Positions 3,095 through 44,841 of a stretch of 64,000 bases of DNA are shown piece after piece (the stretch's first letter is position 1; each line of letters starts with the position of its first letter). The position numbers and the translations under genes are program-made. The stretch covers positions 1,364,001 to 1,428,000 of the forward strand of contig NZ_CP016591.1 in assembly GCF_001698205.1 (NCBI RefSeq), read 5' to 3'. Source of the stretch: Tsuneonella dongtanensis (GTDB taxonomy: Bacteria; Pseudomonadota; Alphaproteobacteria; Sphingomonadales; Sphingomonadaceae). Below the pieces are notes generated by a model. It did not search any database. It worked only from the letters and a program-made list of their open reading frames with translations, and was not told the DNA's origin.

Positions 3095-3334
3095 GGCGAG
3101 CCGTTTACGCGGCGAAACCGCGCTCCGGCACCCCCTTGGGCTCGCCTCACCCCGGACTCCCCACCGTTCATCGTATGGTGCGGGAACGTTAACCATGTTT
3201 GCGGGCGGGCTGTCGAAATGCCTGTCCTACAGCGTGCGTCCGGTGGCATGGCCGCTGGACCCGAGTCGGAATGCCGGGGCAGGCTCATTGAAATCGCTGG
3301 GAAGAGGCGCTTGCCAGGCTCGGCGAACGCGGTT

Positions 3335-3359
3335 CAGAAAGCCCCAATGCAAATGGGGC
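3335..3359 (-). terminator. intrinsic terminator at the end of the candidate large RNA
   Basis: Read on the minus strand, GCCCCA and TGGGGC (3341-3346 and 3354-3359) pair over a 7-nt loop and are followed by TTTCT. The upstream arm is also the 3' arm of the adjacent 10-bp UUCG hairpin (3355-3378), so the two structures exclude each other. Confidence 0.55.
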
Positions 3360-3952
3360 CGACCCGAAGGTCGACCCCACTCTCACCAGCGCGTGGTCTT
3401 TCCGAAGAAAGCGCTTGGCGCCCAGTGTCGTTGCCGTTCTTCCCCGGTCGAGGACCGGTTCCGGCAGGCTCTGTCACCGGCGCTCGCACCGGCATCCGGT
3501 TCCGTCGGGCGGTCGGTCCGGATCCGAAGATCCTTTCCTGTTCCACCCGGCGGTTCCGAGACCGGACTTCCATTGGTCTTTCGCCTCGAACGGTTGCATC
3601 CCTTTGGCCGAAGCCTCTGCGATGCCTCCTCGGCAAGAAGACCGGATGACCGGCCGATGGTGGCTTTGTCTGGCGTTCTTCTCGAACGATCGCCTTGCGC
3701 CTGGCCGAAGCCCATTGCACTGCGATCTCGAAGACCGCGCGGACTGTCGCCGCCATCTCGGTTGGCTTTGGAAAACTTCGGACTTTCAGGCCGTTAGGCT
3801 TGTCCGTCCAGTGGCTTCCGCTCCCTTCCGATGACCTGAAGCTGCGCTTCCAGACCGAGTCGCGCAAGGGTGAACCAGGGCCACTTTTCCACGAACAAGC
3901 GTTTTGCCTGTGGACGCGAGTGGATAACTCAACGGTTCGTCGCAACGGCTGC
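3335..3952 (-). ncRNA. candidate large structured RNA, about 620 nt, family unknown
   Basis: The 909-bp gap between rlpA and argG has lower GC than its surroundings and no reading frame with a ribosome site or normal codon use. On the minus strand it contains five C(UUCG)G tetraloops, all closed by base-paired arms: loops at 3365-3368 (10-bp stem), 3403-3406 (5 bp), 3525-3528 (5 bp), 3609-3612 and 3706-3709 (3 bp each). A further 6-bp hairpin spans 3444-3458. The plus strand has only one CUUCGG, and it is unpaired. The 10-bp stem contains a G-U pair as minus RNA but a C-A mismatch as plus RNA. A promoter-like pair at 3960-3987 and a terminator at 3335-3359 bound the unit. It matches neither RNase P RNA, tmRNA, SRP RNA nor 6S RNA by their conserved segments. 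I see nothing in 3095-3334. Confidence 0.5.
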
Positions 3953-3959
3953 CAGCGAA

Positions 3960-3987
3960 ATATTATTTCGCCGACAGCGCCGCCCAA
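3960..3987 (-). promoter_or_regulatory. possible sigma-70 type promoter for the candidate large RNA
   Basis: On the minus strand TTGGGC (3982-3987) and TAATAT (3960-3965) are 16 bp apart, just past the argG stop codon. The -10 match is partial. The same AT-rich -10 lies inside an inverted repeat, GCGAAA/TTTCGC, around 3955-3971 that might instead mark the 3' end of argG mRNA. Confidence 0.3.
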
Positions 3988-44766: not shown

Positions 44767-44841
44767 TGGTGGGCGTAGGAAGGATTGAACTTCCGACCCC
44801 TACGATGTCAACATAGTGCTCTACCACTGAGCTATACGCCC
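44767..44841 (-). tRNA. tRNA-Val (anticodon GAC)
   Basis: On the minus strand the 7-bp acceptor stem is GGGCGTA with TACGCCC (44771-44777), with an encoded A-CCA end (44767-44770). The D arm reads GCTC...GAGC. The anticodon stem is CTATG/CGTAG with loop TTGACAT, anticodon GAC at 44807-44809. The T arm is GGAAGTTCAATCCTTCC. All cloverleaf pairs hold. It would read GUC and GUU valine codons. Confidence 0.96.

Follow-up and report, generated by a model that had tools for sequence, protein, structure and literature searches.

A previously unnamed structured noncoding RNA downstream of argG in Erythrobacteraceae, with a conserved promoter that carries DnaA-box-like sites and GANTC

The minus strand between argG and rlpA of Tsuneonella dongtanensis, whose genus belongs to the Erythrobacteraceae, encodes a real structured RNA, a conclusion that is well supported by the comparative evidence laid out below. 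Its predicted transcript occupies positions 3351..3835 (minus strand, ∼485 nt, 5′ end accurate to a few nucleotides) of the 64,000-nucleotide stretch of DNA that we analysed, referred to here as the window. The RNA is previously unnamed and is described nowhere among the sources searched. The gene is best explained as independent, single-copy and vertically inherited within its family. Our main reading, to which we assign a probability a little under 0.6, is that it is an independent structured RNA gene whose transcription may be timed by DnaA and GcrA/CcrM and whose product may act in trans. A sequence-only reading of the same region had proposed an undescribed structured RNA of ∼620 nt at 3335-3952, with a promoter at 3960-3987 and a terminator at 3335-3359. 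We inferred the transcript ends (start ∼3835, stop 3351) from conservation of the promoter and terminator, and the positions of these two signals imply a transcript of ∼485 nt, not ∼620. The promoter suggested earlier lies outside the conserved block, in which the conserved promoter consists of TTGCGC (3867-3862) and CAGCTT (3844-3839). The terminator suggested earlier does overlap the conserved stem-loop in part, the latter being located at 3382-3351. A consensus scan for promoters and terminators called neither the conserved promoter nor the conserved terminator.

The first indication of a folded RNA was the presence of five CUUCGG motifs on the minus strand of 3335-3952, which we located as plus-strand CCGAAG at 3364, 3402, 3524, 3608 and 3705; the lone plus-strand CTTCGG is likewise present, at 3776. 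All five minus-strand motifs form hairpin loops in our consensus structure, as had been claimed, at RNA positions 124-133, 221-230, 303-316, 422-441 and 463-476. In 110 homologues CUUCGG exceeded its frequency in dinucleotide shuffles 12.7-fold (275 vs 21.7). The minus strand of 3330-3965 folded better than all of 20 shuffles (z −4.94); the plus strand of this segment also beat its shuffles, less strongly (z −3.10).

For the comparative analysis, 17 sequences supplied a consensus structure, which we then tested on 94 further homologues aligned by sequence only, using as null 300 simulations that kept the tree and the changes in each column. The samples were nested as follows. Removal of L064 and L111, where argG was out of reach, from 124 loci (L052-L174 and L179) left 122 promoters; 12 of these, in which the pattern missed the terminator, were set aside to give 110 sequences for structure work; and removal of 16 training genomes gave the 94 test sequences, which include other species of genera that supplied training sequences. 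Two genomes with strong matches to the model R1 (described below), G153 and G024, lie outside the 122; G024 was used for training, as L024. The base pairs predicted from the 17 sequences hold and covary in the 94 others. Ten of the 19 helices were paired more often than in any of the 300 tree-based nulls and 16 of the 19 covaried above all 300 simulations, while three (213-215, 343-351 and 367-369) had little or no support in this test. Mean pairing in the test sequences was 0.775, compared with 0.32-0.41 when partners were slid by 1-3 columns, and the same displacement lowered G from 29.7 to 10.7-13.5. Random real column pairs scored G of about 10.0, so the null is somewhat lenient. An unguided test of all column pairs was weak (two pairs at E<0.05, both inside the structure), and we therefore used helix tests with a structure taken from other sequences. 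The covariation shows that the RNA has a multi-domain fold.

Following the RNA from 5′ to 3′ (all features on the minus strand), the domain at 3656..3757 is closed by GAUGGCGGC/GCCACCAUC and contains inner helices and a UUCG hairpin (3712-3703); all four of its helices were paired above all 300 nulls. The domain at 3560..3655 has two long helices, 181-189/268-276 and 194-204/251-261, both of which exceeded all 300 nulls. Its inner UUCG hairpin (3615-3606) was recovered through covariation only, and its helix 213-215/237-239 had no support in the 94-sequence test. A GGAUC-UUCG-GAUCC hairpin follows at 3520..3533, with pairing of 0.70 against a null of 0.47 (0/300 simulations). The most conserved part of the RNA is the 3′ domain at 3385..3493 (GAUGCCGGYGCGAGCRCCGGUGACAG ... 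CCACGCGCYGGUGAGAG), which formed the basis of R1 and whose helix 343-351/443-451 had weak covariation support. The intrinsic terminator at 3351..3382 has a 14 bp stem, GAGUGGGGUCGACC-UUCG-GGUCGGCCCCAUUU, which was paired at 1.00 (rounded) in the test set with G of 211 against a null of 9; in the alignment, its UUCG loop is swapped for GGCAGCAAUGCC in other homologues. We also observed two copies of GCGCYGGUGA between 3493 and 3385, one midway through the 3′ domain and one immediately ahead of the terminator. As either copy could pair with CAYYGGGCGC, a two-state fold beside the terminator is conceivable.

Which strand is the RNA had been argued previously from the paired arms of the minus-strand hairpins and from a G-U pair in the longest stem. 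In the 94 test sequences we counted 1431 G-U against 673 A-C cells when the minus strand was read as RNA, and 88 of the 94 lean to G-U, an excess that fits the minus strand. Since the pairs were chosen on that strand, this is support and not independent proof. Relative to shuffles, folding was also better for the RNA strand than for its complement in 11 of 12 homologues, L151 giving about equal values for both. Among 12 distant relatives with a terminator found (see below), 10 favour the RNA strand and two (L376 and L337) the opposite one.

A DNA search identified the element in 11/11 genomes of the genus and in 17 of 60 genomes sampled as relatives, the window's own genome being counted in both cases. 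It is preceded by argG in all 17 and followed by rlpA in 15; rlpA was not found near the element in G001 and G004. To extend the survey we used R1, a covariance model of the 3′ domain built from 17 sequences, which gave matches in 139 of the 397 GTDB-family genomes, with 125 reaching E≤2.3e-6. We examined 123 of these 125 strong loci (30 + 93), and argG was in the locus in 121; the two exceptions were L064 and a contig-end piece, L111. In L064 (G240) the RNA and promoter are present and argG is absent from the 1.5 kb upstream of the match, which may represent another move or an insertion. Fourteen genomes had weak matches only (E between 1e-5 and 1e-3). Of seven such loci examined, six lacked argG (L175-L178, L180 and L181), and the weak alignments that we inspected match best at the terminator, so we treated these matches as noise. 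The seventh, L179 (G347), adjoins argG and has the promoter.

Scanning named genomes for the promoter pattern returned at least 80 loci. Among the 80 listed, argG lies no more than 400 nt upstream in 76, and the 3′ domain is present in 73; five of the remaining seven are truncated by the end of the locus. Named genera among the matches listed nearly always belong to the Erythrobacteraceae or the Erythrobacter/Porphyrobacter group and include Altererythrobacter, Qipengyuania, Aurantiacibacter, Croceibacterium, Croceicoccus, Pontixanthobacter and others. Exact promoter-pattern matches were also observed in Quadrisphaera sp. INWT6 (L273) and in a Eubacteriales MAG (L254), without argG and without the 3′ domain, and are probably due to chance or contamination. 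Plasmid and phage records gave no match, and a mobile element was rejected.

The conserved promoter (3867-3839, minus strand) has a −35 hexamer, TTGCGC (3862..3867), a 17-nt spacer and a −10 hexamer, CAGCTT (3839..3844). Across the 122 aligned promoters TTG is present in 121, the −10 consensus CANNNT in 121 and the 17-nt spacer in 118. The spacer of the window's promoter contains a GANTC site (GACTC, 3857..3861). In 113/122 promoters a GANTC falls inside the core promoter, no more than 26 nt from the start of the −35; it occupies one fixed place in 89 and is missing from nine. In 109/122 the site conforms on either strand to YGAKTCK, which the available part of PMC7987155 gives as the extended GcrA motif. 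GcrA itself is encoded in the genome (PF07750, 84.4 bits).

Upstream of the −35 we found three DnaA-box-like sites, a cluster that the sequence-only reading had missed along with the GANTC site. Site 1, TTATCCAC (3920..3927, minus strand), is present with at most one mismatch in 120/122 promoters. Site 2, GCGTCCAC (3910..3917, minus strand), follows 10 bp after site 1, and its TCCAC is more than 90% conserved; in some relatives, such as L165, site 2 is TTATCCAC itself. The search for this box fell back on box 1 in 34/122 promoters, and that box-2 count was left out. Site 3 (3885..3892, plus strand) points in the opposite direction, reading GTGGAAAA on the RNA strand and TTTTCCAC on the other, and matches GTGGATAA with at most one mismatch in 121/122. 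Compared with the DnaA-box consensus TT[A/T]TNCACA, as stated in the portion of PMC8682772 consulted, the three sites are putative DnaA boxes. Their geometry is tightly kept. Sites 1 and 3 are 35 bp apart in 114/122 promoters, and the interval between box 3 and the −35 measures 24 bp in 108, 13 bp in nine, 25 bp in four (25 bp upstream being also the distance in the window) and 20 bp in one. The nine 13-bp promoters fall in two separate genera, g94 and g58. Eleven base pairs correspond to about one helical turn, so the shortening keeps the phase, as expected if DnaA touches the polymerase. Genome-wide, TTATCCAC is scarce (11 sites, the reversed pattern having 29), an indication that stray DnaA boxes may be avoided.

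The boxes also served as a query. The three-box pattern with up to three mismatches was found in 115 of 396 genomes of the order (reversed control, 2); all true-pattern matches were in the window's own family, in a sample where only about 83 of the 396 genomes came from other families. A stricter pattern, box2-box3-TTGNNNGANTC with zero mismatches, was found in 78 of 397 family genomes (control, 0). Among 385 genomes of the class it was found in two, both among the five drawn from the window's family, and in none of the 380 outside that family. Because this pattern fails to match even the window's own genome, its absence from other genomes is a test of limited power.

We further examined the ∼300 nt that follow argG in 30 genomes lacking a strong R1 match, comprising 24 of the family and six of other families on which R1 was not run. 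A like promoter was present in four, namely G144, G204 and G347 of genus g117 and G033 of genus g24, and was not found in 25; G017 (L362) was left unjudged, its argG frame being broken and the examined stretch lying inside argG. The stricter box pattern matched seven g117 genomes and six g89 genomes. In none of the six g89 genomes was argG in the examined locus, and in four of them a long open reading frame, presumably PurL, lies next to the element. In the g89 loci, too, a terminator of the same type comes after the promoter, its loop being AGCAAU or AGCGAU. The predicted RNA measures 336-340 nt in the five g89 loci where the pattern located a terminator, 523-625 nt in six loci of g117 and 622 nt in G033; L369 and L333 ended in default cuts, so we excluded their lengths and fold scores. 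Since promoter, RNA and terminator occur together at another locus in g89, they behave as one gene that is independent of its neighbours. Given the shared ends, the middle parts of these distant RNAs are probably homologous to that of the window. Two Rfam matches of the mmgR/suhB families were observed within ∼2.5 kb of the moved RNA in two g89 genomes (L368:941-1017, minus strand; L369:4289-4366, plus strand). As a separate observation, a GC-rich inverted repeat, CTCCCCTCCCGC..GCGGGAGGGGCTGGGGGTGGG, is present at ∼395-480 of the window, inside the long open reading frame 281-1585, and was seen by eye again, with similar flanks, downstream of the RNA in the distant relative L374. It looks like a dispersed repeat element.

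Taking the promoter and the RNA together, our main reading would have the gene work as follows. RNA polymerase would start near 3835 from the TTGNNC-17-CANNNT promoter and stop at the intrinsic terminator at 3351. DnaA, bound at the three boxes on a fixed helical face, could contact polymerase and either activate or repress. GcrA acts at GANTC sites between −35 and −10, and the GANTC site in this position may make the promoter sensitive to CcrM methylation and GcrA. Passage of the replication fork would leave the site hemimethylated and change promoter output, so that the RNA might pulse with replication. Timing by DnaA, GcrA and CcrM is thus a conjecture drawn from promoter architecture. As to function, our guess is that action in trans is most probable, with the RNA serving as a base-pairing regulator or in an RNA-protein particle in the replication and division programme. 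We dropped a sponge for CsrA or another GGA-type partner: ANGGA is near expectation in the RNA (ratios 1.26 and 1.01), and GGAA and CGGAA, although enriched 1.7-3 fold, are not unusually unpaired, so that these motifs gave no lead to a partner. A more specific form of the proposal, which we put forward tentatively and with doubt, is that of an RNA reporting on replication: DnaA and the methylation state of a single GANTC would time a ∼485-nt RNA that acts in trans on replication, division or growth programmes in Erythrobacteraceae and some neighbouring genera.

The alternatives differ in which part of the locus they take as primary. A structured housekeeping or stress RNA-protein particle, in which DnaA and GANTC sites only tune expression to growth rate, would account for the conservation being mostly of structure and for the gene being mostly single copy in one place, as other large structured RNAs are. 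We regard it as unlikely, because the arrangement of the boxes and of the spacer GANTC is preserved even in relatives whose RNA has diverged beyond the reach of R1.

It is also rather improbable that the locus is primarily a DNA element that handles DnaA, of the DARS or datA kind, with a secondary transcript. One box facing two tandem boxes is the orientation set of the E. coli DARS1 and DARS2 cores, as depicted in the accessible parts of PMC5742627 and PMC8682772. However, spacing is 24 and 10 bp here and 14 and 12 bp in E. coli (box offsets 0/−24/−34 vs 0/−14/−26, with box I of DARS2, at more than two mismatches, read by eye), and the boxes here sit in the promoter of a structured RNA. A DnaA-handling role would moreover leave unexplained why the RNA covaries, why the distance to the −35 is phased and why there is a terminator. 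The position of the element away from both turning points of GC skew would suit such a role: sampled in 20 stretches, the skew changes sign near 0.83 and 2.2 Mb and the element is at 1.37 Mb, a reading that sets aside one low-GC stretch at 0.15 Mb. The same sampling led us to reject a replication origin or terminus. The stretch set aside, 20 kb at 150001 of the genome (L033), has a GC content of 0.589 and a skew opposite to that of its neighbours, and resembles a foreign island.

A cis-acting element, either a 3′ untranslated part of argG or a leader of rlpA, would fit the location between these genes and on their strand in most genomes examined, but the RNA possesses a promoter and a terminator of its own. 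Its distance from rlpA differs greatly between genomes, rlpA is reversed in L152 (G125), and it was not found near the RNA in five loci (L057, L058, L112, L168 and L179), some of which may end too early. With the g89 unit standing at a locus without argG and the distance to rlpA variable, we rejected an argG tail or rlpA leader, and this explanation is close to refuted.

A protein gene has very little left to recommend it. Long open frames do exist, including one of 244 codons at 4068-3334 of the minus strand, and the plus strand has few stops (median longest stop-free run 153.5 codons, vs 108 for the RNA strand and 86.5 for shuffles). Substitutions between L054 and five relatives are nevertheless even over codon phases (21/19/19 for L066, then 18/20/19, 31/34/31, 38/40/36 and 26/24/21), and 54 of 58 indels have lengths not divisible by three; both results argue against a reading frame on the plus or the minus strand. 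Just one start-like codon reaches 85% conservation across the sequences, and the 9-10 codons that it opens lie within the terminator, which also speaks against a short conserved peptide. A protein product was therefore rejected, in agreement with the earlier statement that the region has no credible protein; codon phase and indels, used in place of dN/dS, revealed no conserved frame.

A diverged RNase P, tmRNA, SRP or 6S RNA, for which only the size in the RNase P range could be cited, is scarcely credible, given that Rfam found no match in the window's RNA or that of relatives and that the RNase P of this genome lies elsewhere (G000:C1:2427855-2428241, 300.6 bits). At gathering scores, the 4227 Rfam families gave only a tRNA in the window (44770-44841), and down to E 5 the segment 2800-4400 gave three matches, all far below cut-offs. 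The RNA of 16 relatives had no match at gathering scores, mmgR/suhB being seen elsewhere in L368 and L369 only, and that of eight relatives had none with relaxed limits. Known Rfam RNAs were thus rejected as an identity for this element. No description of it was found in the open-licence literature, the coverage of which falls short of all print. With covarying pairs in homologues, no Rfam family and no conserved frame, the original interpretation of an undescribed structured RNA is supported.

This RNA adds a large family without a match in Rfam 15. OLE, ROOL, GOLLD and raiA are large structured bacterial noncoding RNAs whose roles are unknown or were found late. The RNA described here resembles them in its length of hundreds of nucleotides and its conserved multi-domain fold, and differs in having no Rfam match, in being found, in this survey, in one GTDB family only and in its promoter with DnaA-box-like sites and GANTC. 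To our knowledge, few bacterial noncoding RNAs are tied to the replication cycle. The combination of a well-defined structure and a promoter with separately testable parts makes the question of whether DnaA and CcrM/GcrA time a noncoding RNA answerable in cultured bacteria. Its promoter is like those controlled by GcrA and CcrM in having GANTC in the core promoter and GcrA in the genome; the promoters treated in the available part of PMC7987155 serve protein genes, whereas here the product is a noncoding RNA and three phased putative DnaA boxes are present. Sites for DnaA, CtrA and CcrM in front of Caulobacter noncoding RNAs were sought in a computational survey, according to the part of PMC5988900 consulted. 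The closest parallel that we found is CcnA of Caulobacter crescentus, also an alphaproteobacterial noncoding RNA linked through its promoter to the replication and cell-cycle circuit. According to the accessible text of PMC8959179, CcnA is located in the replication origin, is presumably driven by CtrA and acts on the 5′ untranslated regions of ctrA and gcrA. In comparison with CcnA as described there, the element reported here showed no Rfam link, lies away from the GC-skew turning points and carries DnaA-box-like sites and GANTC. Were the tentative replication-reporting proposal true, a whole RNA family would replace or complement CtrA-type timing, unlike CcnA in both place and promoter.
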